From Paracoccaceae bacterium (GTDB lineage Bacteria; Pseudomonadota; Alphaproteobacteria; Rhodobacterales; Rhodobacteraceae): a stretch of DNA of 44,813 bases. The stretch covers positions 1 to 44,813 of the forward strand of contig JACSRN010000067.1 in assembly GCA_014879735.1 (NCBI GenBank). The letters run 5' to 3'. The translations under genes and the position numbers were made by a program. This document shows positions 3,657-18,034 of this stretch, in pieces (within the stretch, counting starts at the first letter, position 1; each line of letters begins with the position of its first letter). The notes under the pieces were generated by a model that saw nothing but the letters and a program-made list of their open reading frames with translations, was not told the DNA's origin and did not search any database.

Positions 3657-4538
3657 TCAGTGCTGCAGTTCGGCAAGGGCGGCGCGATAGGCCGCAAGGT
3701 TGGTGGCCGTATAGGCCCGGTAGTCGATATCCAGGGTCGAGGTGATCTCGGACACCATCGACCACAGGGTCTCGCGCAGGAGCGAGGCACATTTCATCGC
3801 GCGATAGGCATGCCAGCGCGCGGCATCGGGTGCGCCGCCGTCATAGGTGGCCAGCAGGATCCGTTCCTGGTCGGGGGTGAAGCCATTGTTGCCGGCAAGG
3901 CCGCCCAGATCGAACAGCGGATTGCCGAAGCCGCCATATTCCCAGTCGATCAGCCAGAACCTTTCACCATCGGTCAGGATGTTGCCCGGCAAGAGATCGT
4001 TGTGGCCAAGGACGGTGGGGCCATCGCCGACCGCAGCCTCCAGCGCCTCGGCTTCGCTCAGAAGTGCCGGCAGCAGCGGCACATGCGGCGAGCGCTGCGC
4101 CATTAGGAAGCGGGCATAGCCGCGCAGGATGTGGAAGACATCGAAGGCCAGAACCGGCCCGGCAACCTGCCGCATCGTATCGCGATGGACCCGGGCGATC
4201 AGGCGGGCCAGCGCCGCGACGGTGCCGGGCCGTGCAATGTCGTCGGGCTGCAGCGGCCGGGCGTTGATATGGTCCAGCACCAGCACGCCTGGCGCGGCAT
4301 AGACCACGGCCGGCCCCACGCCCGAGGCCTGGGCTGCCCGCGACAGCGCCAGTTCGTTCCAGCGCAGGATGCCATGTTCGGGGATGTCGTTGCCGAAACG
4401 CACGACGAAGCGGCGGCCGCCATCGGTGACAAGGATGTTGTGGTTGGTCTTGCCGCCGTCCAGCGGCCGTGCCCCGGCGGGGGCGGAAAAGCAGGGCAAG
4501 GCCTGCGCCCGGGCCAGGATCGCCTCATCCTCGGTCAT
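3657..4538 (-). CDS. Choline/ethanolamine kinase-like phosphotransferase (APH fold)
   Basis: A 293-residue cytosolic kinase of the APH/choline kinase superfamily. It shows the catalytic loop GHNDLLPGN (HND at 179-181) and the metal-binding LIDWEYGG (198-203), with an N-terminal lobe carrying GGKTNHNILV. The spacing and the WEYGG signature resemble choline/ethanolamine kinases (LicA-like) more than aminoglycoside kinases. The start at 4538 follows GGGAGAAACCG; a longer frame has no ribosome site or homology. It heads a two-gene operon with the N-demethylating FAD enzyme, which suggests a small amino-alcohol substrate. Whether it phosphorylates the substrate or the demethylated product is not visible. 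Confidence 0.82.
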   Translation of the reverse strand: MTEDEAILARAQALPCFSAPAGARPLDGGKTNHNILVTDGGRRFVVRFGNDIPEHGILRWNELALSRAAQASGVGPAVVYAAPGVLVLDHINARPLQPDDIARPGTVAALARLIARVHRDTMRQVAGPVLAFDVFHILRGYARFLMAQRSPHVPLLPALLSEAEALEAAVGDGPTVLGHNDLLPGNILTDGERFWLIDWEYGGFGNPLFDLGGLAGNNGFTPDQERILLATYDGGAPDAARWHAYRAMKCASLLRETLWSMVSEITSTLDIDYRAYTATNLAAYRAALAELQH

Positions 4539-4630
4539 CGGTTTCTCCCTGTCGGCGGCCGGCCCGCCGACTCGGGGCGACTTTCGGGAACGGTAGCATT
4601 GATTCAACATCCGGCAACATTTATCCACGA

Positions 4631-4657
4631 CTATTCGACGATATTCCGCTATTGGTG
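4631..4657 (+). promoter_or_regulatory. Three imperfect 9-base repeats in the divergent promoter gap
   Basis: CTATTCGAC, GATATTCCG and CTATTGGTG follow one another with a 9-base period in the 154-base gap between the kinase-FAD operon and the DeoR gene. The region is AT-rich compared with its surroundings. Tandem direct repeats are common DeoR-type operators, so autoregulation and control of the divergent pair is plausible. The repeats are short and imperfect. Confidence 0.3.
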
Positions 4658-4692
4658 TGGAAATATGTGAGATATCGGGCCAGGATTCCTGA

Positions 4693-5493
4693 ATGAACAC
4701 CGCAACTGACCGACTGTCCGATCCCGATGCCACCGCCAATCACCGGCAGGTGGAAATTCTCGATGCGCTGCGGCGGGCCGGTGGCGCCGCGCGGATTCAA
4801 AGCCTGGCCAATGCGCTGGATGTGTCGGACGAGACCATCCGGCGCAACATCCGCCGGCTGGCGGCAGAGGGCCTGGTCGAAAAGCTGCACGGTGGCGCGC
4901 GGCTGGTCGAGCGGGTGGACGAGGCCGATCTGCAGACCCGGTTGCAGGAGAATATCCCGGGCAAGCGCCGGATCGCCGGATGTGTCGCGGCGATGGTGGC
5001 CGATGGCGCCTCGGTTTTCCTTGATGTCGGTTCGACCACCAGTTTCATCGCCGATGCGCTGCAGGCGCACAGTCGGCTGAATGTCTTCACGAACTCGCTG
5101 GCGGTGGCCTGGAAGCTGGCCACGCGCAACGCCAATCGGGTCTTTTTCGCGGGGGGAGAGTTGCGGCCCGCCGACGGCGGCACCTTCGGGCCGGAGGCGC
5201 TGGAGTTCCTCGACTATTTTACCGCCGATCTGGCGATCATCTCGGCGACCGGCCTCTGCCCAGACCGCGGCTTTCTGCTGGCCGACCTGTCCGAGGCCCG
5301 GCTGGCGCGCAAGATGATGACGCGGGCGGCGCGGGTGATCGTGGCCGCGGACAGCCGCAAGTTCCACCGGCTGGCGCCGGTCTCGCTGGGCGATCCGGCG
5401 CAGGTGGACATGCTGGTCTGCGATGCCCCCCCGCCCGAGGTGATCCGCCTTGCGGCCGAAGGCTGGGGCGTCGACATCTGCGTTGCCGCGTGA
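4693..5493 (+). CDS. DeoR-family transcriptional regulator
   Basis: A 266-residue repressor of standard DeoR/GlpR length. The N-terminal winged helix-turn-helix spans about residues 18-70 (ILDALRRAGGAARIQSLA, then VSDETIRRNIRRL and KLHGGARL, the typical DeoR R-x-HGGA ending). The C-terminal DeoRC sugar-phosphate sensor includes LDVGSTTSFIADAL and NSLAVAWKL. It is divergent from the kinase/FAD pair, which it probably controls together with itself; it may also act on the sugar operon that converges on it. The inducer would be a phosphorylated metabolite by family precedent. AGGA lies 7 bases before the ATG. Confidence 0.93.
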   Translation: MNTATDRLSDPDATANHRQVEILDALRRAGGAARIQSLANALDVSDETIRRNIRRLAAEGLVEKLHGGARLVERVDEADLQTRLQENIPGKRRIAGCVAAMVADGASVFLDVGSTTSFIADALQAHSRLNVFTNSLAVAWKLATRNANRVFFAGGELRPADGGTFGPEALEFLDYFTADLAIISATGLCPDRGFLLADLSEARLARKMMTRAARVIVAADSRKFHRLAPVSLGDPAQVDMLVCDAPPPEVIRLAAEGWGVDICVAA

Positions 5494-5565: not shown

Positions 5566-6690
5566 TCAGCCCTTTGGCGCGGCGTCCAGCGCCCGGCGCA
5601 TGGCGGCCACGGCGGTGTCGATCCGGGCGGGATCCTGCAGCAGGCTGCCGCCCAGCAGGAAGACCACATCCTCGCCATACATCGCCTGCATGTCGGCAGC
5701 GCGCGCCACACTCATCCCGCCGCCGGGGCTGGGCAGCATCGGCCGGCCCGGGCCGGCCGGGGTGCGGCAGGCACCGGCGATCTGCGCGCATTCGGCCGCG
5801 GTAAAGCCGAAACGGCCGCCCACATTCGGAAAGACCGAGATGTCGACCCCGGCCAGCCGCTGGATCGTGCCGAACAGGGTGCCGTGATCGATCCCGGTAT
5901 CGGGCGCAAGGACATAGGGACCGAGAAAGGCCGGATGCGTCATCACCGGCAGGTTCAACCCGGCATCCCCTGCGATCCGCTCGACCAGTCCGAAACCGAA
6001 AAGCCCCGGCATGACCAGAATGCCGCCGGCGCCGGCATCCCGGGCGAAACGCAGATTGGCCTCGATCTCCTCGGGGCGGCCCGAGAGATTGGGAAAATAC
6101 AGCGCCGCCGTGCCGCGGCGGGCATTTTCCTCGGCCACCGCGCGGGCCACGGCCTCGACCCGGGCGCGGAAGGGGGCGGTGGGCTGGCCGGCAAGGCCGT
6201 GATCTTCCTTGACGATATCGGCGCCACCGCGGACGCAGCCGGCGGCCAGGCGGGCGAAATCCTGCGGCGACAGGCCCATGGGTTTCAACACCGGCGCGAT
6301 CATGCCGCCGGTGGCGCGGCCGGTCAGCCGCCGCAGCCCGGCAATGCCGAACCTTGGCCCGGGGTGGCGGCGGGCCATCTCGGGGCCGGGATCCAGGCCG
6401 ATGACCCGGATGCCGGCTTGAATCGAGGAATTGCCGAAGATCACGTTCAGGAACTGGGTCAGATCGTCGCCGGCGCTGTCGGGAGAGTAGCTGACGACCG
6501 CACGCCAGACATCGGCGGCGAGGCGGCCCAAGTCCTCGACCCGGCCGAGGATCTCGTCGGTCACATAGCCTGGGGGCACCAGGTCGCGCGGGATCTCGAC
6601 GGTCTGCTCCAGCGCGATGCCTTCGGCCCGGGCCATGGCTTCGGCCCGGGTTGCGGCGCGGATCCGGTAGGTGACGGCAAAGCGGGTCAC
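5566..6690 (-). CDS. RuBisCO-like protein (form IV, RLP)
   Basis: A 374-residue protein of RuBisCO large-subunit fold, shorter than true RuBisCO (about 470) and in the range of short form IV proteins. Lys136 in VLKPMGLS matches RuBisCO Lys175. Lys161 in ADIVKEDH matches the carbamylated Lys201, with Asp163 at the 203 position and His164 replacing Glu204. THPAFLG (252) and PSPGGGMS match the later active-site strands. The loop-6 lysine region is not conserved, so it is not CO2-fixing. Known RLPs catalyse enolisation, isomerisation or decarboxylation in methylthioadenosine salvage, the Rhodospirillum rubrum MTA-isoprenoid shunt, or apionate degradation (OiaX, ApdA). GTG start, overlapping the previous stop as GTGA; last gene of an ABC-transketolase operon. 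Lying close to mtnK-mtnA favours a methylthioribulose-phosphate-like substrate. Confidence 0.9.
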   Translation of the reverse strand: MTRFAVTYRIRAATRAEAMARAEGIALEQTVEIPRDLVPPGYVTDEILGRVEDLGRLAADVWRAVVSYSPDSAGDDLTQFLNVIFGNSSIQAGIRVIGLDPGPEMARRHPGPRFGIAGLRRLTGRATGGMIAPVLKPMGLSPQDFARLAAGCVRGGADIVKEDHGLAGQPTAPFRARVEAVARAVAEENARRGTAALYFPNLSGRPEEIEANLRFARDAGAGGILVMPGLFGFGLVERIAGDAGLNLPVMTHPAFLGPYVLAPDTGIDHGTLFGTIQRLAGVDISVFPNVGGRFGFTAAECAQIAGACRTPAGPGRPMLPSPGGGMSVARAADMQAMYGEDVVFLLGGSLLQDPARIDTAVAAMRRALDAAPKG

Positions 6691-7688
6691 AGCGCCTCGG
6701 CCTTTGCCGCGGAATGCACCGCCTCGATCCGGACCGCATCGAGGGCGCCCTCGTCGATGCCGGTCTTCTGCCCGGTCAGCCGTTCCACGGCGCGGACCAG
6801 GCTCAGCGCATCCATCCCGTAGTGCCGCATCAGATAGGGGCGAGAGCCGCCATGGGCATAGGTGTCCTGCAGCCCCAGCCGGATCAGCCGCCGCGCCAGC
6901 CCCGCCTCGGCCAGGGCCTCGGCAACCATGCTGCCGATGCCGCCGGTGACGAGGTGGTTTTCCAGCGTGATCACGCCATGGCGGACGCTGGCGGCATGAT
7001 CGACGATCTGCGCGGCATCGAAGGGTTTCAGCGTGTTCAGATGCAGGTGCCGCACCGAGACGCCGGCCCGCGCCAGCGCGCCGCGCGCCCGGATCGCTTC
7101 TTCGGTGGTGATGCCGGCGGTCACGACCAGCACATCGCCGCCCTCGGCCAGCACCCGCATGCGGCCGATCTGCAACGGCGTGTCAAAGAGCCGCGGCACC
7201 GATCCGCGCAGGATGCGGCAATAGACCGGGCCGTCGACGGTGTCGGCCTCGGCCACGATGCTTTCCACCTCGGTCGCATCCCCGGTTTCCAGCACGGTCA
7301 TGTTCGGGATGGTGCGCATGACCGAGATGTCCTCGATCGCCTGATGCGTCATGCCCCCCGGGGTGGTGACACCCGGCAGGAACCCCATCAGCCGGACCCG
7401 GCGGCGGGGATAGGCGACCGAGGCCATGAGCTGGTCATAGGGCCGGCGGTACAGGAACACCCCGAAGGAATGCAGGAACGGCCGAAAGCCCGCAAGGCCG
7501 AGGCCGCCGGCAAAGCTGAGCATGTTCTGCTCGGCCATTCCCAGCGACAGGAACCTGTCGGGATGGCGGTCGCGGAAGCCGTCGATCTCGCAGCTCGATG
7601 TCAGGTCGGCGGACAGGCACAGCACCTCGGGGTGCTGCATGGCGTGGGCCTCGAAGGCGCCGGCATAGGGGCGGTTGACCATCTCCAT
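6687..7688 (-). CDS. Transketolase, C-terminal subunit (split type)
   Basis: A 333-residue subunit holding the pyrimidine-binding and C-terminal domains. LSLGMAEQNMLSFAGGLGLAG carries Glu53, the glutamate that activates the thiamine diphosphate aminopyrimidine. PGVTTPGGMTHQAIEDISVMR and VTAGITTEEAIRA follow as in split transketolases. It starts at an ATG that overlaps the stop of the N-terminal subunit by one base, with GGAGG 8 bases upstream. With its partner it should transfer a two-carbon ketol unit between sugars in the cytosol. Apulose-4-phosphate transketolase (AptA/AptB) is a split enzyme of this kind. Lying between a sugar-binding protein and an RLP, it is dedicated to this pathway rather than to the housekeeping pentose cycle. 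Confidence 0.92.
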   Translation of the reverse strand: MEMVNRPYAGAFEAHAMQHPEVLCLSADLTSSCEIDGFRDRHPDRFLSLGMAEQNMLSFAGGLGLAGFRPFLHSFGVFLYRRPYDQLMASVAYPRRRVRLMGFLPGVTTPGGMTHQAIEDISVMRTIPNMTVLETGDATEVESIVAEADTVDGPVYCRILRGSVPRLFDTPLQIGRMRVLAEGGDVLVVTAGITTEEAIRARGALARAGVSVRHLHLNTLKPFDAAQIVDHAASVRHGVITLENHLVTGGIGSMVAEALAEAGLARRLIRLGLQDTYAHGGSRPYLMRHYGMDALSLVRAVERLTGQKTGIDEGALDAVRIEAVHSAAKAEAL

Positions 7689-8617
7689 CAGCGGGCCTCC
7701 AGTTCGACGGGGGCAATGCCCAGTTCGGCGGCGATCTCCAGGTTCATCCGCAGCCGTTCGTCCTCGGATTTGAAACGGACGTAATGCAGGCGGGGAAAGC
7801 GGCTCATCAGGCTGTCCATGCCCTGGGTGGGCCGGGAATGGGCCAGCACGATCAGCGGCCGGCCCGGATGGGGTGTGGCGGCAGCGGCGCGCATCGCGGC
7901 CAGGTCATGGGCGTCGCATTCGGCGACGGTCGCGCCGAAGTCGCGGAACTTCGTCGCGATGTCGCCCACCGTCATCACATCCTCCATCGCGCCGTCGCAT
8001 TGCTGGCGGTTCACGTCCATGATCGCCCAGAGATTGTCGATACCGTGATGCGCGGCGGCCTGCACCGCCTCCCAGGTCTGGCCTTCCTGCACCTCGCCGT
8101 CCGACATGAAGACGCAGACCCGGCCGGTATGACCAAGCCGCCTGCGGCCGAAGGCAAGGCCGGCCGCGGTCGAAAGCCCGATGCCGAGCGTGCCGTTGTG
8201 CACCTCCATGCCGGGAGAATGCTCGGCCCCGATCATCTCGACCGACGAGCCGTCCTTGTTGAACATCGCCAGCCCCTCGGGTGCCATGCGGCCGACCTCG
8301 ATCAGGCAGGCATAGGCCACCAGCGCGTAATGCGCGGGGGCGATGAACAGCCGGTCATGCACGGCATCGAACGGGCCGTTGTAGCCCGCTCCGGTGACAT
8401 AATCCAGATTATCCGCCGAAGGCACGCCCGAGAAGGGCGGCGGCACCGCCGGCATGGTCGAGGGCCCGAGGTTCAGCCCCTCGTTGTAAAGAAAGGCCAG
8501 TTGTTCGGCGGCGGAACAGGCCTGGCTCAGATACCCGCCGTTGTTGCGGATCGTATGTTCGAAGACGCGGGCACGGATGCCGCGCGCCACCTCCTCGGTG
8601 CTTTTCTCGTTGCGCAA
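7688..8617 (-). CDS. Transketolase, N-terminal subunit (split type)
   Basis: A 309-residue thiamine-diphosphate-binding subunit. The cofactor motif is VFMSDGEVQEGQTWEA (residues 169-184) ending at Asn203 in MDVNRQQCDG. APAHYALVAYA and VHNGTLGIGLSTAAGLA are conserved transketolase blocks. In the first motif, normally H-P-G, the sequence is NNGGYLS (25-31), so the usual active-site His appears replaced by Asn, which may signal changed substrate handling. The start is TTG at 8617 with GGAGG 5 bases upstream; no ATG or GTG with a comparable site is near. It forms an operon with the C-terminal subunit (1-base overlap) and follows the binding-protein gene by 59 bases. Confidence 0.9.
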   Translation of the reverse strand: MRNEKSTEEVARGIRARVFEHTIRNNGGYLSQACSAAEQLAFLYNEGLNLGPSTMPAVPPPFSGVPSADNLDYVTGAGYNGPFDAVHDRLFIAPAHYALVAYACLIEVGRMAPEGLAMFNKDGSSVEMIGAEHSPGMEVHNGTLGIGLSTAAGLAFGRRRLGHTGRVCVFMSDGEVQEGQTWEAVQAAAHHGIDNLWAIMDVNRQQCDGAMEDVMTVGDIATKFRDFGATVAECDAHDLAAMRAAAATPHPGRPLIVLAHSRPTQGMDSLMSRFPRLHYVRFKSEDERLRMNLEIAAELGIAPVELEAR

Positions 8618-8641
8618 CGGGGCCTCCTGCGGGTCGGTTGG

Positions 8642-8670
8642 GGTACGGGCCGGTCATGCCGGCCCGTACC
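8642..8670 (-). terminator. Perfect 12-bp hairpin after the sugar-binding protein gene
   Basis: GGTACGGGCCGG and CCGGCCCGTACC pair perfectly around a TCATG loop, just past the stop of the binding-protein gene and before the transketolase genes. There is no T-run, so it more likely protects the upstream mRNA from 3' decay or attenuates read-through. That would raise binding protein over downstream enzymes, as known for other ABC operons. Confidence 0.55.
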
Positions 8671-8676
8671 GAAAGG

Positions 8677-9717
8677 TCAGCGCTGCGGCAGCTTCATCCA
8701 GGGGGTCATCGCCACATCGGCATGGGCAAAGGCCGGAAGCTTGACGCCCAGCTCTTCCATGGTCTTGATGTCGAGGTCGTTCAGCATCGCCTGGGTGATC
8801 AGGGTCGGCGGAACGATGACATTATGGCCGGGATCCTCGCCCGCCAGCAGCATCGCCAGCGTGCGTACCGAAACCTCGCCCACCACGGCGGGGTTGGTGG
8901 CAGCGGTGGCCTTCCAGGACGAGCCGGGTTCGCGCATCAGGGCGATGTCGGCGGTGGAGATATCGGCCGAATAGATCGAGACCTGACCCGACATTCCGGC
9001 CTCGTCCACGGCGATTTTCACCCCCTTGGCGAATTCGTCATAGGGTGCGAACATCACGGTGATGTTGGGATTGGCCGACAGCACCGCCCGTGCCTGGTTC
9101 GCGACCGAATTGGCGATCGGGTTGTCGAGCGTGCCGAACATCGCGACTTCGTTGATGCCGGGATTGTCGGCCTTCACCGTCTTCCACGTCTCGTCACGGC
9201 GATCCAGCGGCGCGATGCCGGCGACATAGACATAGCCCGCGACGAATTCGGTGCCATTGTCGGCCAGGGCCTGTTCCAGCGCAAGGCGCGCCAGATCGCG
9301 GTCCGACTGCTCGACCTGCGGGATCATGTCATTCTCGACGTTGACGTCGAAGGCGACGACCTTGATGCCGGCATCGACCGCCCGCTGCGCCGCCTCCTTC
9401 ATCGACTCGGTCAGGCCGTGCTGGATGATGATGCCATCGACCCCAAGCGCGATGGCCTGATCGACCATGTCGGCCTGCAGCGCGGCATCCTGCCGGCTGT
9501 CGAAGACCTGCAGGTCGACGCCCAGAGCCGCCGCCTGCTTTTCCACGCCCGAAAGATAGGCCTGGAAGAAGTCGCCGGTCGAGAGATAGCGCACAAGCGC
9601 GATCTTCACCTCGCCCGGATTGTCGAGCGGCGCGGGAGCTGTCTCCTGCGCCAGGCCCAGCGAAGGCAGAAGCGCCACGCTGCCGATCAGTGCCGTGAAT
9701 ATCCGTCTGGAGATCAT
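8677..9717 (-). CDS. Sugar ABC transporter periplasmic binding protein (ribose type)
   Basis: A 346-residue type I periplasmic binding protein. A Sec signal peptide (MISRRIFTALIGSVALLP..) ends near LGLAQ. The mature region has the family pattern EVKIALVRYLSTGDFFQAYLSG, QADMVDQAIALGVDGIIIQHG and VVAFDVNVENDMI. These correspond to ribose/AI-2-like (CUT2) binding proteins, which capture a monosaccharide and deliver it to the permease. GGGAGGATACC precedes the ATG. The gene lies third in an ATPase-permease-binding protein order and is followed by a strong hairpin. The ligand is unknown; the adjacent kinase and isomerase point to a ribose derivative modified at C5. Confidence 0.92.
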   Translation of the reverse strand: MISRRIFTALIGSVALLPSLGLAQETAPAPLDNPGEVKIALVRYLSTGDFFQAYLSGVEKQAAALGVDLQVFDSRQDAALQADMVDQAIALGVDGIIIQHGLTESMKEAAQRAVDAGIKVVAFDVNVENDMIPQVEQSDRDLARLALEQALADNGTEFVAGYVYVAGIAPLDRRDETWKTVKADNPGINEVAMFGTLDNPIANSVANQARAVLSANPNITVMFAPYDEFAKGVKIAVDEAGMSGQVSIYSADISTADIALMREPGSSWKATAATNPAVVGEVSVRTLAMLLAGEDPGHNVIVPPTLITQAMLNDLDIKTMEELGVKLPAFAHADVAMTPWMKLPQR

Positions 9718-9750
9718 GGTATCCTCCCGTTTCTCCGTGCCGTCTGGAAT

Positions 9751-9785
9751 GGGCGGGGCCGGTTCTGCCGCCGGCCTGCCCGCCC
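9751..9785 (-). repeat. GC-rich hairpin between permease and binding-protein genes
   Basis: GGGCGGGGCCGG pairs with CCGGCCTGCCCGCCC apart from a 3-base bulge, with an 8-base loop. It fills the 76-base gap ahead of the binding-protein gene. It could separate expression of the membrane part from the binding protein through RNA processing. Confidence 0.4.
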
Positions 9786-9793
9786 GTCGAAGA

Positions 9794-10810
9794 TCATCCC
9801 CGCGCCCGGCCGGTGCGGCCCGACAGCGCGAAGGTGAAGACCAGCGCCACCACGAGGACGGCGCCCTTGATGAAGTCCTGCGTGTAATAGGGTGCGTTCA
9901 GCATGGTCAGCCCCTGCAGCAGGATGCCGACGAACAGCGCACCCACCGCGGTGCCGAAGGCGTTCGGCTTTGCCGCGCCAAGGACGGCAAAGCCGATCAG
10001 CGCCGCGGCCACGGAATCGAGCAGCAGGTTGTTGCCCGAGGCCACGTCGCCCCGCCCCAGCCGCGCCGACAGCAGGATGCCGCCGATCGACGCCATCACC
10101 CCCGAGATCACATAGGCCAGCACCCGATAGCCCGCGACATTGATCCCCGCCAGGGCCGAGGCCTGCGCGTTGGAGCCGATGGCATACATCACCCGGCCGT
10201 GCCGGGTCTTTTCCAGAAACACCCAGACCAGGACGGCGATGGCCAGCAGGAACACCACTGACAAGGGCACCAGGTCGGGCAGGATGAAGTCGATCCGGTA
10301 GCGGCCGAGCATCAGGAACTCGGGCGCGAAGGTGCCCGTCGCGTTGCGCCCGTCCGACAGCACCATGCCGGTCGAGATCGAATTGCCCTCGGTCGGGATA
10401 CGCTGCAGCCCGACCAGCAGGAACATCATCCCCAATGTGGCCAGCAGGTCGGGCACCCGCATCTTCACGATGAGCAGCCCGTTGATCAGCCCGACGGCGG
10501 CGCCGAGCGCCAGGCACAACACCACCGCCGCCACGGCGCCCATTTCCCAGACCACCATCACATAGGCCGACAGCATCATCGCCGAGGTGGCCACCGCCCC
10601 GATCGACAGGTCGAACCCGTCGACCACCAGCGTTGCCGTAACCCCCAGCGCCAGAATGCCGGTGATGGCCACCGACTGCAGGATGAAGACCGCGCTCTGC
10701 GGCGAGACGAAGGCCGGCCGGGCGATGGCGAACACCACGATCAGCCCCGCCATCAGCAGGAGAAATCCGTAGCGGATGGCCAGGTCGGCCAGCGATGTCT
10801 CAGGCTTCAT
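9794..10810 (-). CDS. Sugar ABC transporter permease (RbsC-like)
   Basis: A 338-residue inner-membrane protein with about nine or ten hydrophobic segments. It matches the CUT2 permease pattern: FILQSVAITGILALGVTATLVVDGFDLSIGA early on, GLINGLLIVKMRVPDLLATLGMM in the middle, and TRHGRVMYAIGSNAQASALAGINVAGYRV, the EAA-like cytoplasmic loop that contacts the ATPase. It probably works as a homodimer because only one permease gene is present. Its ATG overlaps the ATPase stop as ATGA, which implies translational coupling. Positives in the C-terminal tail (SGRTGRARG) are typical of cytosolic ends. Confidence 0.93.
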   Translation of the reverse strand: MKPETSLADLAIRYGFLLLMAGLIVVFAIARPAFVSPQSAVFILQSVAITGILALGVTATLVVDGFDLSIGAVATSAMMLSAYVMVVWEMGAVAAVVLCLALGAAVGLINGLLIVKMRVPDLLATLGMMFLLVGLQRIPTEGNSISTGMVLSDGRNATGTFAPEFLMLGRYRIDFILPDLVPLSVVFLLAIAVLVWVFLEKTRHGRVMYAIGSNAQASALAGINVAGYRVLAYVISGVMASIGGILLSARLGRGDVASGNNLLLDSVAAALIGFAVLGAAKPNAFGTAVGALFVGILLQGLTMLNAPYYTQDFIKGAVLVVALVFTFALSGRTGRARG

Positions 10811-12333
10811 GCATATTCTTCCATGGATTGGGCGGCGCCCGACAGCGTGCCGGCGACCTGTGCCATCAGAAGGTTCAGATCGATGTCTTCGTTGCGGTGG
10901 CTGCCCGCCAGCCGGTGTTCGCTCATCACCAGGATGCGGTCAGCCACTTCCAGTGCCTCGTCGATCTCGGCGCACAGCACCAGCGTTGTCCGGGTGGGGG
11001 CGCTGTCGCGGATGCGGCGGCAGATGTCGCGGCGGGCCTGGATGTCGACCCCCTGAAACGGCTCGTCCAGGATCAGCAGGCGGCTGGCCTCGGCCAGCCA
11101 GCGGCCGACGACCACCTTCTGCTGGTTGCCGCCCGACAATGTCATGATCCCGTCGCGCGGACCCTGGCAGACCACGCCCATATCGACGATGGCGCGGTCG
11201 GCCGCCGCACGTTCGGCCGCCCGCCGCATCAGCGACAGCAGGCCGGAATATCGCCGGGTGAAGGGCAGTGTCAGGTTCTTCTGGATGTCGAAATCCGGGA
11301 TCACCGCATTCGTGCGGCGGTCCTTGGCCGACAGGAACACCCCCGAGGCGACCGCCTGCCCCGGCGAGCCGGGCGCGAAGGCGCGGCCGTCCAGCGTCAG
11401 ACGGCCCGCCACCGGCGGTTGCAGGCCGAACAGCACTGCGGCCAGTTCGCTCTTGCCCGAGCCGACCAGCCCGGTGATCGCCACCACCTCGCCTTCGCGC
11501 AGCGTCAGGTCGAAGGCCAGCGCCTCGGCCCGCAACTGCAAGCCCTCCGCCTCCAGCACCGGGCGGCCGGGCGGCGGGATGGTGATGTCGACTTCGGTGA
11601 TCTCATGGCCGAGCATGGCACGCACCGCCCCGGCATAGTCGAGCGGCTTTGTCTCCGACAGGCCGGAGATCTGTCCATCGCGCATCGAGACGATCCGGTC
11701 GGCCAGCCGGCGGATATCGGACATGCGATGCGAGATGTAGAGGATCGCCACGCCTTCGCTGCGCAGCCGGTCGACCAGTGCGAACAGCCGTTGCGCCTCG
11801 GTCAGCGACAATGACGAGGTCGGCTCGTCCAGGATCAGCAGCTTCGGGCGCCGTGCCATGGCCCGGGCAATGGCGACAAGCTGGCGGTCGGCCAGTGTCA
11901 GGCCGGCGACGGGGCGGGTCACGTCGATCTCCAGCCCCACGGCAGCAGCGATCCGCCGCGCCTCCTCGCGCATGGCCCGCGCGTTGAGGAAGATGTCGCG
12001 CCGTTCCGCCAGCGCGTCGAGCAGCAGGTTCGAGGCGACGTCGAGGTCGGGCACGACGCCATCGTTGATGTTCTGGTGCACGGTCACGACGCCCGCCCGC
12101 AGCGCGGCTGCAGGGCTGGCCGGGGCAAAGGGCCGCCCTTCCAGCCGCACCTCGCCGGCATCGGCGCGATGAACACCGCACAACACCTTGACCAGGGTGG
12201 ATTTTCCGGCGCCGTTCGCGCCCATCAACACCGTGACCTGCCCCGCCGGCAGATCAAGGTCGATCCCGCGCAGCACGGCGTTGCGGCCGAAAGCCTTGGT
12301 CAGCCCGCGGATGGCGATGGCGGTTTCCGGCAT
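10807..12333 (-). CDS. Sugar ABC transporter ATP-binding protein (double cassette, RbsA-like)
   Basis: This 508-residue protein carries two fused nucleotide-binding domains, the hallmark of ribose/galactose (CUT2) importers. Domain 1 has Walker A GANGAGKST (38-46), a degenerate signature (LTLADRQ) and Walker B LLILDEPTSS. Domain 2 has GLVGSGKSEL, the signature LSGGNQQKV and Walker B LLILDEP. Such asymmetric cassettes are normal in the family. I take the ATG at 12333 because GAGGA lies 5 bases upstream; a GTG 12 bases earlier is possible. It is the first gene of the importer-transketolase-RLP operon and is transcribed away from mtnK. Confidence 0.95.
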   Translation of the reverse strand: MPETAIAIRGLTKAFGRNAVLRGIDLDLPAGQVTVLMGANGAGKSTLVKVLCGVHRADAGEVRLEGRPFAPASPAAALRAGVVTVHQNINDGVVPDLDVASNLLLDALAERRDIFLNARAMREEARRIAAAVGLEIDVTRPVAGLTLADRQLVAIARAMARRPKLLILDEPTSSLSLTEAQRLFALVDRLRSEGVAILYISHRMSDIRRLADRIVSMRDGQISGLSETKPLDYAGAVRAMLGHEITEVDITIPPPGRPVLEAEGLQLRAEALAFDLTLREGEVVAITGLVGSGKSELAAVLFGLQPPVAGRLTLDGRAFAPGSPGQAVASGVFLSAKDRRTNAVIPDFDIQKNLTLPFTRRYSGLLSLMRRAAERAAADRAIVDMGVVCQGPRDGIMTLSGGNQQKVVVGRWLAEASRLLILDEPFQGVDIQARRDICRRIRDSAPTRTTLVLCAEIDEALEVADRILVMSEHRLAGSHRNEDIDLNLLMAQVAGTLSGAAQSMEEYA

Positions 12334-12378
12334 GGTCTTCCTCACTCCCGCCGTTCACGCTAGCCGCTTCCAGTCAAT

Positions 12379-12396
12379 TGTCAATATTATTTGACA
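12379..12396. promoter_or_regulatory. Palindromic operator candidate between the ABC operon and mtnK
   Basis: TGTCAA, TATTAT and TTGACA make a perfect 6-6-6 inverted repeat, AT-rich within a GC-rich region. It lies 46 bases from the ATPase start and 55 from the mtnK start. Each arm read outward is a consensus -35 box for one of the divergent genes, so bound regulator would block both. The same TTGACA/TGTCA half-site recurs at 15871-15892. The -10 boxes are weak. Confidence 0.5.
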
Positions 12397-12450
12397 TATG
12401 GCAGTTTTGCGGAGAACCTGCCGCCAAGACGAGGTGCGGGGGAGGAGAAC

Positions 12451-13716
12451 ATGACCGCGCAAACCTATGCGCCGCTGACGCCCGAGACCCTGGCGCAGCG
12501 GCTGGGATCCTTGCCGGAACTGGCCGAACGGGTCGGTCCGGCGGATAGCTGGACGGTGAAGGAGGTCGGCGACGGCAACCTGAATCTGGTCTTCATCGTT
12601 TCCGGCAGCGCCGGGCAGGCCGTGGTGAAACAGGCCCTGCCCTATGTGCGGCTGGTGGGCGAAAGCTGGCCCCTGCCGCTGAAGCGGAGCTTCTTCGAAT
12701 ACCATGCGCTGATCCGGCAAGAGGCGCGCGACCCCGGTTCCGTTCCCGCGGTCTGGCATTTCGACGAAGCGCAGGCCATCATCGCGATGGAGTTCCTGTT
12801 CCCCCATGTCATCCTGCGCCAGGCGCTGGTTGAGGGGCGGCGGGTGCGCGACCTGGGCGAGCGGCTGGGCCTTTTCTGCGCCCGCACGCTGTTTCGCGGG
12901 TCGGATCTGTCGATGAAGCCCGCCGACCGCAAGGCCGATCTCGCGCTGTTCGCCGGCAATGTCGAACTGTGCGACATCACCGAGAACCTTGTCTTCTCGG
13001 ATCCCTATTTCGATGCGCCGCTGAACCGCCACACGGCGGGGCTGGAGCCGGCCATTGCCCGGCTGCGCGGCGATCTTTCGCTGAAGGTGGCGGCGCAGCA
13101 CCTGAAGCTGGCGTTTTCCAGCCGGGCCGAGACGATGCTGCATGGCGACCTGCACACCGGATCGGTGATGGTGACGGAAACCGAGATCCGGATGATCGAT
13201 CCGGAGTTCGCCACCTATGGCCCGATCGGCTTCGATGTCGGCATGCTGATCGCCAATTTCCTGATGGCCCATCTCAGCCAGCCCGGGCACGAGGTGGCGC
13301 CCGGCGACCGCGAAGCCCAGCAGGAATGGCTTCTCTTCGTGGTCGAGGCGGTCTGGGACAGGTTCGAGGCCGAGTTCTCGCGACTTTGGCGGACCGAGCG
13401 GCGCGGCATGCTGTACCAGGCCCGCCTCTACGAGGATCAGGGTCACGGCCTTGCCGCCGAACAGGCGCTGGCCGATCTGCTGGGCCAGATCTGGCGCGAC
13501 ATGCTGGGCTTTTGCGGGATCGAGATGCATCGCCGCATCCTGGGCCTGGCCCATAATGCCGATTTCGAACGGATCGCCGACACCGGCCGCCGGGCCGCCT
13601 GCGAGGCGCGGGCGCTGGCGATGGGACGGCAATTGATGCTGGGGGCGGGCAGCCTGCCCGGGATCGGAACCGTTGCCGCGATGGCGCGCCGCATGAACCG
13701 GGAGGATCACCTGTGA
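12451..13716 (+). CDS. mtnK: S-methyl-5-thioribose kinase
   Basis: A 421-residue kinase, the normal size for MtnK. The catalytic loop is HGDLHTGSV (H231-V238) and the metal loop [14 protein letters not shown] (D250, E252), both close to the MtnK signatures. [10 protein letters not shown] and [10 protein letters not shown] in the N-lobe also fit. MtnK phosphorylates the anomeric C1 hydroxyl of 5-methylthioribose; related enzymes may accept other 5-deoxyribose derivatives. The start at 12451 is preceded by GGAGGAGAAC. The stop overlaps the mtnA start. Placement beside a dedicated importer argues for use of exogenous sugar rather than only recycling internal methylthioadenosine; no MTA nucleosidase is in view. 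Confidence 0.94.
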
Positions 13717-14819
13717 AGATCGATGGAACCGCCTACCGGACGATCTGGCGCGATGCCGATGGCGTGGTGCAGGTGATCGACCAGCGCTGGCTGCCGCATG
13801 AGCTGCGGGTGGCCGCCCTGCGCAGCCGTGCCGATTTTGCCACCGCGATCCGCGACATGTGGGTCCGCGGCGCCCCGCTGATCGGGGCGACGGCCGCCTG
13901 GGGCATGGCCATGCAGATGGCCGAGGATCCTTCGGATGCGGCACTGGCCGAGACCTGGCAGGTGCTGCATGAAACCCGCCCCACCGCGATCAACCTTCGC
14001 TGGGCGCTGGACGAGATGCGCAGGGTGCTGGGCCCGCTGCCCCCTGCCGCGCGGGCGGCGGCGGCGGCACGGCGGGCCGCCGAAATCTGCGACGAAGACG
14101 TCGAGATCAACCGGCAGATCGGCCTGCACGGGCTGAAGATCATCCGCGAGATTGCGGCGCGAAAGGCCGGCCGGCCGGTCAACATCCTGACCCATTGCAA
14201 CGCGGGCTGGCTGGCAACGGTCGACTGGGGCACCGCGACCTCGCCCATCTATCACGCGCATGACGCCGGCATTCCGGTCCATGTCTTCGTCGACGAGACC
14301 CGGCCGCGCAACCAGGGGGCGCATCTGACCGCCTGGGAGATGAACCGCCACGGCATCCCGCACGACCTGATCGTCGACAATGCCGGAGGCCATCTGATGC
14401 AGCATGGCGAGGTGGATCTGGTGATCGTCGGCACCGACCGGACCACGGCGCGGGGCGACGTCTGCAACAAGATCGGCACCTATCTGAAGGCGCTGGCGGC
14501 GCGGGCCAATGGCGTGCCGTTCTATGTCGCCCTGCCCTCGCCCACCATCGACTGGCGGGTGCACGACGGGGTGGCGGAAATCCCGATCGAGGAGCGCAAC
14601 CCCGCCGAGGTGACGCATGTGCAGGGCCGGGCGCCGGATGGCACGATCCTGTCGGTGCAGATCTCGCCCGATGGCACGGGTGCCCGCAACCCGGCCTTCG
14701 ATGTCACGCCGGCCGAGCTGGTGACAGGCCTTCTGACCGAGCGCGGGCTTTGTCCGGCGACCGCAGACGGCATGGCGGCGATGTTCGGCGATCTGAAGGC
14801 CGCCGTTTCGGGGCGCTGA
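13713..14819 (+). CDS. mtnA: S-methyl-5-thioribose-1-phosphate isomerase
   Basis: A 368-residue aldose-ketose isomerase of the eIF2B-alpha/beta/delta family. Cys162 in LTHCNAG and Asp242 in [18 protein letters not shown] match the two catalytic residues of Mtn[10 protein letters not shown] and [16 protein letters not shown] complete the signature. It converts methylthioribose-1-phosphate to methylthioribulose-1-phosphate without opening through a free aldehyde. GTG start at 13713 with GGGAGG upstream, overlapping the mtnK stop, so the two are translated together. None of the canonical later genes (mtnB, mtnC, mtnD) follows, so the ketose phosphate must go elsewhere; the RLP and the aldolase fusion are the obvious local candidates. 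Confidence 0.94.
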
Positions 14820-14872
14820 TCGGGGTGCTGACAGTACAGGCCGGCCCGGTGGCGCGGCGCGGCGCCCGCGCT

Positions 14873-15847
14873 TCAGCCGGGCGCGGCAAGCAGCGCCTCG
14901 GCCACGCCGGTGCCCGTGACCAGATGGGTGACATAGCCGCCCCGGATCGCCGCCATCGTCGCCTGCACCTTGTCCAGCCCGGGGGTGACGAGAATGCCCA
15001 TGTCCAGCCCCACCAGCCGCGGCAGCGGAATGCCGATCATCCTGTCCTCCATCGGCCCCGGCATCTGGCGACCGTCGGCGTCGATGAACCGGCCGCAGAT
15101 CACCCCCACGGCACCGCGTGCGACATGCCAGTCCAGATCGGCGGCGGTGGCCAGCCCGCTCATCACGATATGGCTGTCGGTCGTGGCGGTGCCCACGGAA
15201 AACAGCAGCTTGTTCACCGTCTCCAGCTGGTCGAGCTGGGCTTTCAGGATCGGCTCGTGCCGCAGGTCCGCGGCCAGTTCCGGGCGCGACAGGATCGCGG
15301 GCGCATGCAGGTTCAGACAGCGCGCACCCAGCCGCTGGGCCAGGCGGGTGGAACAGGCCTCTGCGGTAAAGCCGTAGGGCGTTGCCATCGAGCCTACCAG
15401 TTGCAGCACCGTCAGGTCCTCGACCGGCTTCGCTTCGACCACCTCTGCCAGTTCATAGACCGTGCGGCCCCAGGCCACGCCCAGCCGATCGCCGGGGGCG
15501 ATCAGGTCGGGCAGCCACAGTGCTGCGCCATGGACCACTCGCAGGAAAGCCTCTTCCAGCGCCACGCCTTCGTCGGGGACGACATAGGCACCGGAGAGCC
15601 CGAAGCGGTCGCAGAGTTCCACCGCCAGCCGGTGCGTGGTGAAGGCCGGCGCGGCCAGGGTGATACGGATCAGCCCCTTCTCGCGCGCCTCCTGCAGATA
15701 GTTCACCACCGTCGCGCGCGAGATCCCCAGCGCCGCGGCAATCTCCTGCTGGTTGCGGCCGTCATGGTAATACATCCAGGCCACCTGGATCACCGCATTC
15801 TCGCCGCTGACCTGGGCCAGATTGCGCCGCCGTGCCGTTCCGCCCAT
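14873..15847 (-). CDS. SorC-family sugar-binding transcriptional regulator
   Basis: A 324-residue regulator. The N-terminal helix-turn-helix is NQQEIAAALGISRATVVNYL (about residues 32-51). A SorC sugar-phosphate-binding domain follows, with GVAWGRTVYELAEVV, LVGSMATPYGF and GVICGRFIDADG. Family members sense phosphorylated sugars (LsrR, DeoR of Bacillus, SorC). The ATG at 15847 has GGGAGG 7 bases upstream; the frame continues far upstream but without family sequence. It is convergent with mtnA and divergent from the aldolase fusion, so it is well placed to control both sides. The repeated palindrome at 12379 and 15871 is its likely operator. Confidence 0.92.
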   Translation of the reverse strand: MGGTARRRNLAQVSGENAVIQVAWMYYHDGRNQQEIAAALGISRATVVNYLQEAREKGLIRITLAAPAFTTHRLAVELCDRFGLSGAYVVPDEGVALEEAFLRVVHGAALWLPDLIAPGDRLGVAWGRTVYELAEVVEAKPVEDLTVLQLVGSMATPYGFTAEACSTRLAQRLGARCLNLHAPAILSRPELAADLRHEPILKAQLDQLETVNKLLFSVGTATTDSHIVMSGLATAADLDWHVARGAVGVICGRFIDADGRQMPGPMEDRMIGIPLPRLVGLDMGILVTPGLDKVQATMAAIRGGYVTHLVTGTGVAEALLAAPG

Positions 15848-15870
15848 GCCGCGGCCTCCCGATTTCGCCG

Positions 15871-15900
15871 TTTGACAGACATATCTGACAAAAGTACAAA
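15871..15900 (+). promoter_or_regulatory. Promoter and overlapping operator of the aldolase fusion
   Basis: TTGACA (15872-15877), a 17-base spacer and TACAAA (15895-15900) make a good sigma70-type promoter. A near-perfect inverted repeat, TTTGACAGA and TCTGACAAA (8 of 9 pairs, 4-base centre), covers the -35 box and spacer. It lies 24 bases upstream of the SorC-type gene start and 66 before the aldolase ATG. Its half-site matches the palindrome ahead of mtnK. Confidence 0.6.
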
Positions 15901-15958
15901 AGCCAAGCGGCAGCCCGCGGCTGCGGCCCCTTTGCAGGCCCCATAGCAGGAGAATGCC

Positions 15959-18034
15959 ATGATCGCCAACCGCTGGACCGAGACCGGGGCATCGCATTGG
16001 CAGGAGGCGGCGGGCGCGGATGCGCGGGCGCGGGAGCTGGCGCTTCGGGTCTATTCCTCGCGCCTGATCGGGCAGGACCCGGATCTGGTGATGCATGGCG
16101 GGGGCAACACCTCGCTGAAGGCGACGGCGCCGGACATGTTCGGCGAGGAACTGCGGGTGCTGCATGTCAAGGGTTCGGGCTGGGATCTGGACACGATCGA
16201 GGCGAAGGGCCTGCCGGCGGTGCGGCTTGATCCGTTGATGCAGCTGCGCGCCCTGCCCGCGCTGTCGGACGAGGCGATGGTGAATGTCCAGCGGCTGAAC
16301 CTTCTCGATGCGGGGGCGCCCAACCCGTCGGTCGAGACGCTGCTGCATGCCTGGATCCCGCATCGCTATGTCGACCATACCCATGCGACGGCCTTCCTGG
16401 TGCTTGCCAACCTGCCGGAGGTGGCCGCCGTCACGCGCGAGCTGTTCGGCGACCGGCTGACGCTGGTGCCCTATGTGATGCCGGGCTTTGCGCTGGCCCG
16501 GGCCGCCGCCGATGCCTTTGACCGGAACCCAGCGGCCGAGGGGCTGCTTCTGATCAACCACGGGCATTTTGCCTGGGGGCCGGATGCGAAATCCAGCTAT
16601 GACCGCATCGTCGCGCATACCAACCTGGTGGAGGCCTGGCTGGCCGACCGTCGCCCTGCCCCGCTGGTGCCGGCGGCGGCACTGCCCGCCGCCGATCCGG
16701 CATCTGCCGATCTTGCCCCCGTCCTGGCCGGGCTGCGCGGCGCGCTTGCCTCCTGCCTGCCGGAGGCCGCAGCTTTGCCGGTGCTGGATCTGCGCGATGG
16801 ACCTTCGGCCCGGGCCTTTGTCGCGCGGGACGACCTGGAGGATCTGGCGCTGCGTGGCGTGGCGACACCCGACCATGTGATCCGCACCAAGGGCGAAGTG
16901 CTGGTCCTGCGCCGCAATGCGCAGACGCCCGAAGGGATGCGCGCCGCGGTGGCCGATTTTGCCGATCGCTACCGTGGCTATTTTGCCGCCCATGTGGCGA
17001 GTGCCTCCGGACCCAAGAGCATGCTGGCACCGATGCCGGGCCTGGTCTGGCTGGAGGGTGCCGGAGTGCTCGGCGTGGGGGCCAGTGCCGCCGCGGCCCG
17101 GATCGCCGCCGATATCGGCCTTCAATCCGCCCGGGTCCGCGCCGATGGCGAGGCGGCGGGCGGCTTCCGCCCCATCGGACCGGCCGATCTGTTCGACATG
17201 GAATACTGGTCGCTGGAACAGGCAAAGCTGGGCAAGGGCAAGCCGCCCGCCCTGCAGGGCCGTGTCGTGCTGGTGACGGGCGGCGCCGGGGCCATCGGCC
17301 TTGCCACCGCCCGCGCCTTTGCGGCCGAAGGCGCCAGCCTCTTTCTGGTCGACCGCCAGGGCGAGGCGCTGGACGCCGCGGTCGCGGCGCTTGGCCGCGA
17401 CCATGGCGGCCATGGTTGCGACATCACGGCGCCCGGATCACCGGCGGCGGCCGTGGCCGCCTGTGTCCGCCGGTTCGGCGGGTTGGACATTCTGATATCG
17501 AATGCCGGTGCTGCGGTGACGGGCGAGATAGCCACCCTGCCCGACCGTGCCCTGCGCGACAGTTTCGAATTGAACTTCTTCGCCCATGTCGGCTTTGCCC
17601 AGGCCGCCGTCGCCATCTTTCGTGCCCAGGCGCAGGGCCGTGGTGCAAGGGGGGCGGAACCGGGGCAGATCCTGTTCAACGTCTCGAAACAGGCGGTGAA
17701 CCCCGGCCGGGGCTTTGCCGCCTATGGCCTGCCCAAGGCGACGACCTTCTTCCTGCTGCGCCAGCTTGCGCTGGAACTCGGGCCCGAGGGGATCCGGGTG
17801 AACGGCATCAACGCCGATCGAATCCGCTCAGGCCTGCTGACCCCGGGGATGATCGCCGCGCGGTCCTCGGCCCGGGGTGTCGACGAGGCGACCTATATGG
17901 CGGGCAACCTGCTGCAGGCCGAGGTCGAAGCCCGGCATGTGGCGGATGCCTTCGTGATGCTGGCGAAGGCAGAGCGGACGACGGCCCATGTGATGACGGT
18001 CGACGGCGGCAACATCGAGGCGGCGCTGCGCTAG
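15959..18034 (+). CDS. Bifunctional class II aldolase / short-chain dehydrogenase
   Basis: A 691-residue fusion. Residues 1-430 form a zinc class II aldolase: Glu126 and the zinc ligands His140, His142 (VDHTHATA) and His201 (INHGHF). Residues 434-691 are an SDR: TGGAGAIG (440-447), NAG (515-517), Ser576, Tyr589 and Lys593 (YGLPK). The best-known fusion of this kind cleaves rhamnulose-1-phosphate to DHAP and lactaldehyde, then oxidises the aldehyde. No rhamnose isomerase or kinase is present here. Beside mtnK-mtnA, the likely substrate is a 5-modified ribulose-1-phosphate, giving DHAP plus methylthioacetaldehyde or acetaldehyde, with the SDR converting the aldehyde in the same protein. GCAGGAGAATGCC precedes the ATG. 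The family is certain; the substrate is inferred. Confidence 0.9.
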   Translation: MIANRWTETGASHWQEAAGADARARELALRVYSSRLIGQDPDLVMHGGGNTSLKATAPDMFGEELRVLHVKGSGWDLDTIEAKGLPAVRLDPLMQLRALPALSDEAMVNVQRLNLLDAGAPNPSVETLLHAWIPHRYVDHTHATAFLVLANLPEVAAVTRELFGDRLTLVPYVMPGFALARAAADAFDRNPAAEGLLLINHGHFAWGPDAKSSYDRIVAHTNLVEAWLADRRPAPLVPAAALPAADPASADLAPVLAGLRGALASCLPEAAALPVLDLRDGPSARAFVARDDLEDLALRGVATPDHVIRTKGEVLVLRRNAQTPEGMRAAVADFADRYRGYFAAHVASASGPKSMLAPMPGLVWLEGAGVLGVGASAAAARIAADIGLQSARVRADGEAAGGFRPIGPADLFDMEYWSLEQAKLGKGKPPALQGRVVLVTGGAGAIGLATARAFAAEGASLFLVDRQGEALDAAVAALGRDHGGHGCDITAPGSPAAAVAACVRRFGGLDILISNAGAAVTGEIATLPDRALRDSFELNFFAHVGFAQAAVAIFRAQAQGRGARGAEPGQILFNVSKQAVNPGRGFAAYGLPKATTFFLLRQLALELGPEGIRVNGINADRIRSGLLTPGMIAARSSARGVDEATYMAGNLLQAEVEARHVADAFVMLAKAERTTAHVMTVDGGNIEAALR

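Follow-up and report, generated by a model that had tools for sequence, protein, structure and literature searches.

We describe a gene cluster in a contig of 44,813 nucleotides (JACSRN010000067.1, positions 1 to 44,813; hereafter the window) from a Paracoccaceae bacterium, whose draft assembly (GCA_014879735.1) comprises 4.39 Mb in 201 contigs and is 98.9% complete. The cluster, at positions 5566-18034, probably encodes an importer and a catabolic module for 5-methylthio-D-ribose, possibly for 5-deoxy-D-ribose too, acting through a branch made of a RuBisCO-like protein (RLP) and a split transketolase, together with an aldolase outlet. An RLP feeding a transketolase made of two pieces would be a so far undescribed variation on the known salvage pathways. 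Gene families and their conservation, the placement of the RLP, the genome context and a palindrome between the operons are what we observe, and from them each of the reactions given below is predicted. An earlier note on this DNA, made from the letters alone, had listed an importer-transketolase-RLP operon divergent from mtnK-mtnA, followed by a SorC-type regulator and an aldolase-dehydrogenase fusion, and family profiles bear out every gene of that layout, with both MtnK and MtnA exceeding curated cut-offs:

5566-6690, minus strand: RLP (form IV, RLP1-like); RuBisCO_large 71 bits, cut-off 30; GTG start
6687-7688, minus strand: TktC, pyrimidine-binding and C-terminal half of the split transketolase; Transket_pyr and Transketolase_C; conserved C-terminal tail
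7688-8617, minus strand: TktN, thiamine diphosphate (ThDP)-binding half of the split transketolase; Transketolase_N; TTG start; family-specific insertion
8677-9717, minus strand: periplasmic sugar-binding protein of the importer; Peripla_BP_4
9794-10810, minus strand: RbsC-type permease of the importer; BPD_transp_2
10807-12345, minus strand: RbsA/AraG-type double ATPase of the importer; alternative start possible at 12333
12379-12396, no strand assigned: perfect inverted repeat TGTCAA-N6-TTGACA between the divergent operons, candidate operator
12451-13716, plus strand: mtnK, 5-methylthioribose kinase family; TIGR01767 467 bits, cut-off 275
13713-14819, plus strand: mtnA, 5-methylthioribose-1-phosphate isomerase family; TIGR00512 429 bits, cut-off 279
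14873-15847, minus strand: SorC-type sugar-binding transcriptional regulator; Sugar-bind 171 bits
15959-18034, plus strand: bifunctional class II aldolase/short-chain dehydrogenase (SDR); NF006192 819 bits, cut-off 639

From a divergent promoter, the minus strand thus carries the RbsABC-type importer, both transketolase halves and the RLP, and the plus strand mtnK-mtnA, with the regulator and the fusion lying beyond. The coordinates give overlaps of 4 bases for RLP/TktC, permease/ATPase and mtnK/mtnA. MtnK probably starts at the ATG at 12451 rather than at the TTG at 12391, where its reading frame opens. For the fusion the best-scoring model is NF006195, at 923 bits narrowly under its cut-off of 931. 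A plus-strand open reading frame (ORF) at 14750-15946 was discarded as the regulator, having no profile match, with the SorC protein encoded on the opposite strand.

In the proposed pathway, the importer would take up free 5-methylthioribose (perhaps 5-deoxyribose), which MtnK would convert to the 1-phosphate and MtnA to 5-methylthioribulose-1-phosphate; endogenous methylthioribose-1-phosphate derived from MtnP would enter at MtnA. The RLP, as a 1,3-isomerase of the RLP1 kind, would shift the ketone to yield 1-methylthio-D-xylulose-5-phosphate, and TktN/TktC would cleave this sugar between C2 and C3, freeing glyceraldehyde-3-phosphate. The ThDP-bound two-carbon remainder might exit as methylthioacetaldehyde, or shed methanethiol to leave an acetyl group. 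As a parallel outlet, the aldolase-SDR would split methylthioribulose-1-phosphate into dihydroxyacetone phosphate (DHAP) and an aldehyde, the latter to be converted by the dehydrogenase half.

The association of these genes was followed in the same 292-genome sample of the order, searched with the RLP (E 1e-40 or better), MtnK and TktC (type assigned at E 1e-90 or better), which gave 21, 29 and 25 genomes, respectively. All 21 RLP genomes have the TktC-type transketolase, and MtnK is found in 19 of them against 10 of the 271 others (Fisher p 1.2e-20, for related genomes in which events are not independent). One scan of the named genomes' contigs, which reaches close relatives only, gave 54 RLP loci. 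TktC adjoins the RLP in 53 of these, with L070 as the exception, and TktN was found in 50, the four misses being three loci cut near the RLP plus L070. MtnA was found in 43, and at each of the 11 loci where it was missed one flank or both fall short of 10 kb; L037 keeps a partial MtnA at the contig end. Where flanks of about 10 kb are available on each side (32 loci), the transketolase and MtnA are always present, accompanied by MtnK (26), by a purine-nucleoside phosphorylase (PNP; 5) or by neither (1, L041); the aldolase-SDR occurs in 18 of them (>55% identity) and a single-domain class II aldolase match in 6. Among plasmids, 20 of the 21 alphaproteobacterial RLP rows (H1-H21, at least 43% identity; not H20) are found among the 22 records with TktC of at least 60% identity. 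The neighbourhood survey proposed in the earlier note therefore finds the RLP-transketolase genes and mtnK-mtnA co-occurring across Rhodobacterales and in Rhizobiales plasmids. Where MtnK occurs in the absence of an RLP (10 genomes), the importer adjoins MtnK in 9, and the aldolase is a class II match in 5 (25-31% identity) and an aldolase-SDR in 1, with none matched in 4. One in-frame stop is flagged inside the RLP match of L014 and of L015 (genomes G290 and G231).

The RLP itself is, by sequence and in a tree, nearest to the RLP1 isomerase group, and not to MtnW or RuBisCO, in agreement with the isomerase type assigned to it earlier, its activity being a prediction. The closest solved chain is 3qfw (226 bits, the next one 124), a Rhodopseudomonas palustris RLP distinct from the rlp2 structure 2qyg and so, by elimination, RLP1 of this species. 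PMC5893883 describes two RLPs in R. palustris, of which RLP1 is an isomerase that works alongside a cupin and converts 5-(methylthio)ribulose-1-phosphate to 1-(methylthio)xylulose-5-phosphate, the role of RLP2 being negligible. The predicted model of the window RLP (predicted local distance difference test score, pLDDT, of 91) also has 3qfw as its top Foldseek match by E-value (TM-score 0.84). A KxDH motif is common to the window RLP, 3qfw and a cupin-linked RLP, reading KEDHG in the window and the other aligned transketolase-linked RLPs except for those of Rhizobiales (KDDHG) and Vibrio, whereas KDDE is found in MtnW, in 2zvi, in 4nas and in the genome's own RuBisCO; the use of KxDH as an RLP1 marker is our own observation, from which the Vibrio relative deviates (KEDD). 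With a cupin-linked RLP as query, 385 genomes of the class gave 17 matches, namely 14 of the cupin type, two with tktN-tktC (L160, L161) and the window. The cupin adjoins the RLP in 13 of the 14, and in the remaining one (L158) the contig ends 105 bases past the match. A tree joins the 14 cupin-type RLPs, L085 and 3qfw in one clade (98/99); the transketolase-linked RLPs form three groups whose mutual order it does not settle, and MtnW, 4nas and RuBisCO are distant. Branches in this tree are long, most of all that of the Vibrio sequence. Three other identities were rejected: a carboxylating RuBisCO, as KEDHG stands in the place of the KDDE active-site motif; MtnW, with 116 bits against a cut-off of 514 (TIGR03332) and 165 against 409 (PRK09549); and a member of the apiose/apionate pathway, with 94 bits in the OiaX model against 700 and a locus whose scanned genes include no FGGY kinase. 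The source genome also encodes a genuine RuBisCO large subunit (L001, on contig C89 of G000; 456 bits, KDDE). Beyond MtnW and the isoprenoid-shunt and apionate pathways, we know of no role for most RuBisCO-like proteins.

The split transketolase shows the domain order of a split gene, with Transketolase_N on one gene and Transket_pyr plus Transketolase_C on the next, and the nearest solved relatives of TktN and TktC are the two chains of the split transketolase of Carboxydothermus hydrogenoformans (6yaj/6yak). An insertion of about 27 residues in TktN (near residues 53-82) is present in all 63 rows of the family, whereas four other catabolic split transketolases, included as outgroup, fill 3 of the 30 columns and 6yak has 6 residues at this position; the C-terminal tail of TktC is likewise missing from those four and from 6yaj. 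In the predicted TktN model the insertion reaches a pLDDT of about 40-52 by block, too uncertain to place it. The canonical GHP(E) and GEDG residues are missing from the window enzyme. Absence of the GHP(E) histidine and of the GEDG aspartate might have proved that the donor lacks a C1 hydroxyl, but we discarded this argument, since the four other catabolic split transketolases are also without them. Transketolases from loci without an RLP nest among the RLP-linked ones, and the enzyme therefore seems to have moved between a route with an RLP and one with a kinase and an epimerase, each of which would plausibly deliver a 1-substituted xylulose-5-phosphate. For comparison, the AptA/AptB transketolase of D-apiose catabolism is a known system with an apulose kinase.

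In the 4.39-Mb assembly TGTCAA-N6-TTGACA has a single exact copy, the palindrome TGTCAATATTATTTGACA at 12379-12396, and the reversed control pattern gives 0; only this exact whole-genome match is counted, the chance expectation at 2 mismatches being 0.37 matches in the window alone. Among 56 importer/mtnK intergenic sequences, it is perfect in 31 and within 1 mismatch in 37 (shuffled, 0), and after removal of identical sequences in 27 and 32 of 51, respectively; these are related sequences and about a third lacks the palindrome. Because TTGACA by itself matches the -35 consensus for sigma-70, weight is put on the full palindrome. A looser form, with up to 2 mismatches, occurs in the regulator/aldolase gap of 20 of 29 sequences and in none after shuffling, which is suggestive only, and the window's own gap has no site within 2 mismatches. 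Linking site and regulator by inference, we consider that the SorC-type protein probably controls the cluster via the palindrome.

At the level of the whole genome, MtnP is present (498 bits, cut-off 437) and the window MtnA is the sole match of the IF-2B family; any further use of endogenous methylthioribose-1-phosphate would go via this enzyme. The earlier note had listed mtnB, mtnC, mtnD and the isoprenoid-shunt cupin as absent from the locus, and for mtnB, mtnD and the cupin this absence extends to the assembly at the thresholds used: neither MtnB nor ARD (MtnD) was found (MtnC and MetY were not searched for), and the cupin gave no match in the assembly or among the scanned locus genes, with a query that finds cupins in 13 other loci and had no positive control genome. 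Three class II aldolase matches were obtained, one OtnC-like, one PRK07490-like and the window fusion.

Related loci were mapped by tblastn, which replaced a clustering of all ORFs that had merged antisense ORFs, and eight plasmid regions were picked for contrast from 80 RLP/TktC match rows. Besides the window type, with the importer-tktN-tktC-rlp operon divergent from mtnK-mtnA plus SorC and aldolase-SDR, a first variant (L062, L064, L065, L067, L075, L077) replaces the fusion by a single-domain class II aldolase match, which in L062 reaches 227 bits in a FucA-type model (cut-off 264). In three Rhizobiales plasmids (L082-L084) the genes form a single run mtnK-mtnA-tktN-tktC-rlp, with a divergent importer and an adjoining aldolase-SDR. 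In a nucleoside version tktN-tktC-rlp is joined by PNP, an amidohydrolase and mtnA, and MtnK gives way to a predicted deaminase and phosphorylase; the amidohydrolase is close to methylthioadenosine/5'-deoxyadenosine deaminases and scores below their cut-offs. In this version mtnA adjoins tktN in L069, L071 and the distant genome L168 (mtnA-tktN-tktC-rlp, PNP nearby), and in L078 and L072 only a gene of the BisC type (S/N-oxide reductase family; 9785-12061 in L078) intervenes. A BMP-type importer accompanies L069, L071, L072 and L078 and was not found in the tblastn maps of L053, L056 and L060. Lastly, loci with the transketolase and no RLP (L080, L081, L124, L125) carry a BisC-type gene, a xylulokinase-like kinase, an L-ribulose-5-phosphate 4-epimerase-like protein and a zinc dehydrogenase, and L123 and L126 are alike with another importer and no epimerase match. 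Three features here go beyond the earlier note: the nucleoside-fed version, the RLP-free transketolase loci, where an S/N-oxide reductase is encoded, and the exchange of cupin for transketolase beside the RLP.

Some observations on these loci stand apart. BisC-type genes recur near this transketolase in L078, L080, L081 and L123-L126 (L078 and L081 scanned; the others tblastn, 46-50% identity), and such loci may serve a pathway for a sugar alcohol bearing a methylsulfinyl or methylthio group; L080, L081 and L124/L125 have a common importer, annotated as taurine/sulfonate-type in L080. The L072 contig is titled Enemella evansiae, which we take to be an actinobacterium, and its nucleoside-type genes are 95-99% identical to those of the Ponticoccus plasmid L078, either by recent transfer or by contamination. 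After rlp, both L078 (15163-16173) and L072 encode a protein with a signal-peptide-like start and no Pfam or NCBIfam match. In L060 a 780-residue pyruvate-dehydrogenase E1/transketolase-like protein (11144-13486) directly follows the RLP; this thiamine-type protein aside, the scanned flanking genes of L053, L058, L060, L061, L069, L074, L121 and L123 show no obvious added pathway enzyme. In the window, the scanned flanks hold a Gfo/Idh/MocA oxidoreductase, a DAO plus GCV_T protein, a desaturase, an amino-acid-type ABC transporter, a DeoR regulator and a second APH-type kinase, with no evident tie to the RLP/mtnK locus; just outside it, the second APH/choline-kinase-like gene (3657-4739, minus strand) overlaps a DeoR-type regulator (4693-5493, plus strand).

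Several results weigh against the proposed pathway. Sequence identity of the RLP to 3qfw is only about 35%, and the tree places each of its 20 transketolase-linked RLPs, the window's among them, outside the cupin-linked clade. Several MtnW structures fit the RLP model as well as 3qfw or better by TM-score over the query length (0.87-0.89, with 0.84 for 3qfw), so that 3qfw ranks first in Foldseek by E-value only and the fold alone does not decide for this protein. The missing canonical transketolase residues do not identify a substrate, for the reason given above. The TktC-type enzyme occurs in 4 of its 25 genomes without an RLP, and two plasmids carry it with no RLP annotated within 14 kb and with BisC-, xylulokinase- and mostly 4-epimerase-type neighbours. 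Conversely, L070, a contig from a metagenome-assembled genome, keeps importer and RLP without the transketolase. Two of the 21 RLP genomes (G020, G023) have no MtnK match, and the 20-kb stretches round their rlp, tktN and tktC show no MtnA; the scanned stretch of G020 (L121) has a TRAP transporter, and that of G023 (L122) was mapped by tblastn only. A Vibrio locus (L079) has tktN-tktC-rlp with FGGY kinases and neither mtnK nor mtnA, L074 (flanks of 7.8 and 6.5 kb) lacks mtnA, and in L053, L056 and L060 the nucleoside genes lie several kb from tktN. Finally, the BisC-type gene occurs in only 1 of the 32 full loci, L072, itself a near copy of L078. A fold match that fails to tell the RLP from MtnW, and loci in which mtnA lies away from tktN, make the proposed pathway slightly less likely in our view and a separate sugar pathway for RLP and transketolase slightly more so. 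Of the two-outlet scheme advanced earlier, the gene families, the nearness of the RLP to RLP1, the co-occurrence and the palindrome between operons speak in favour, the two RLP genomes without MtnK/MtnA nearby speak against, and the reactions stay at the level of predictions.

The cupin/transketolase exchange beside related RLPs is in our opinion the best clue to the substrate, and, along with the transketolase shared by RLP and kinase routes, probably the best clue to the donor; the BisC-type gene of the nucleoside-fed L078 points to a sulfur substrate. It is rather unlikely that the physiological substrate is instead 5-deoxyribose, arising from 5'-deoxyadenosine, in which case the RLP would give 1-deoxyxylulose-5-phosphate, to be split by the transketolase into glyceraldehyde-3-phosphate and acetaldehyde or partly kept for isoprenoids. 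PMC10986504 describes activity of the DHAP-shunt MtnK and MtnA on both sugars, PMC6079011 describes 5-deoxyribose clusters with sugar transporters, and the deaminase of the nucleoside version scores 301 bits in the 5'-deoxyadenosine deaminase model (cut-off 522), whereas the BisC-type genes by the same transketolase (L072/L078, L080, L081, L123-L126) suggest sulfur and the closest characterised RLP group works in methylthioadenosine salvage. Less probable still is that RLP and split transketolase belong to another sugar pathway and only share the importer and neighbourhood with mtnK-mtnA. The xylulokinase-type kinases of the RLP-free and Vibrio loci, which are without MtnK/MtnA, would suit such a separation, as would G020 and G023 and the mtnA found several kb off tktN in L053, L056 and L060; yet the one-strand run in three Rhizobiales plasmids, the mtnA adjoining tktN in L069, L071 and L168, its presence in 32 of 32 full loci, the statistical association of MtnK with the RLP and the cupin/transketolase exchange all tie the two sets together. 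That the RLP is an enolase or decarboxylase like MtnW or OiaX is highly improbable: these models are its top NCBIfam hits, both far under cut-off, and MtnW structures match its model as well as 3qfw by TM-score, but the MtnW substrate requires MtnB, not found in the genome, and both the best solved-chain match and the KxDH motif place it with 3qfw.

Within the methylthioribose pathway, a more tentative idea, which we hold as possible though rather doubtful, is that TktN and TktC form a new kind of thiamine-dependent enzyme that breaks C-S bonds. Much like phosphoketolase, it would accept 1-methylthio-D-xylulose-5-phosphate from the RLP, free glyceraldehyde-3-phosphate, expel methanethiol (or methanesulfenate from a sulfoxide) from the bound two-carbon unit and end in acetyl phosphate or acetate. 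Loss of methanethiol from a thiamine-bound unit has its chemical analogues in phosphoketolase and sulfoacetaldehyde acetyltransferase, and by analogy might occur here. Were this doubtful step real, Rhodobacterales and Rhizobiales would gain a catabolic route for carbon and sulfur beside the cupin route. The proposed pathway, if true, would give one RLP clade a concrete, testable partner and substrate, would involve a transketolase with an unusual donor, and would open a further way to use sugars derived from methylthioadenosine, perhaps releasing methanethiol, in bacteria where MtnB/MtnD are not found.

The earlier note knew of no description of an RLP with a split transketolase and MtnK/MtnA, and no such description appears in the titles or abstract openings of the matches listed in the open PubMed Central literature, which leaves most subscription papers and preprints outside; searches there for RLP, transketolase and methylthioribose, or for methylthio and split transketolase, gave no match, and one for mtnK, mtnA and transketolase gave two papers whose titles are unrelated. 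Among known systems, universal or Bacillus methionine salvage (MtnB, MtnW, MtnC, MtnD) shares MtnK and MtnA with the window, whose genome however has no MtnB or ARD match and whose RLP is far under the MtnW cut-offs. The split transketolase of C. hydrogenoformans likewise has two adjacent genes, one per half, and differs in the TktN insertion, the TktC tail, the GHP(E)/GEDG residues missing from the window enzyme and the gene neighbours. With the DHAP shunt (MtnK or MtnP, MtnA, Ald2) the window shares MtnK, MtnA and an expected class II aldolase chemistry, and in sister loci the class II aldolase has a single domain and is FucA-like in the case of L062, whereas the window aldolase is fused to an SDR instead of being of the single-domain Ald2 type and the RLP-transketolase branch is extra. 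There is also a likeness to the MTA-isoprenoid shunt of Rhodospirillum rubrum and of R. palustris (RLP1 plus cupin), in which, as proposed here, MtnA feeds an RLP of the RLP1 kind, the R. palustris protein sharing the motif and being the best sequence match. In contrast to that shunt, the window has a split transketolase in the place of the cupin, for which its genome has no match, its RLP lies outside the cupin-linked clade, and it adds an importer and MtnK for sugar that would come from outside the cell.

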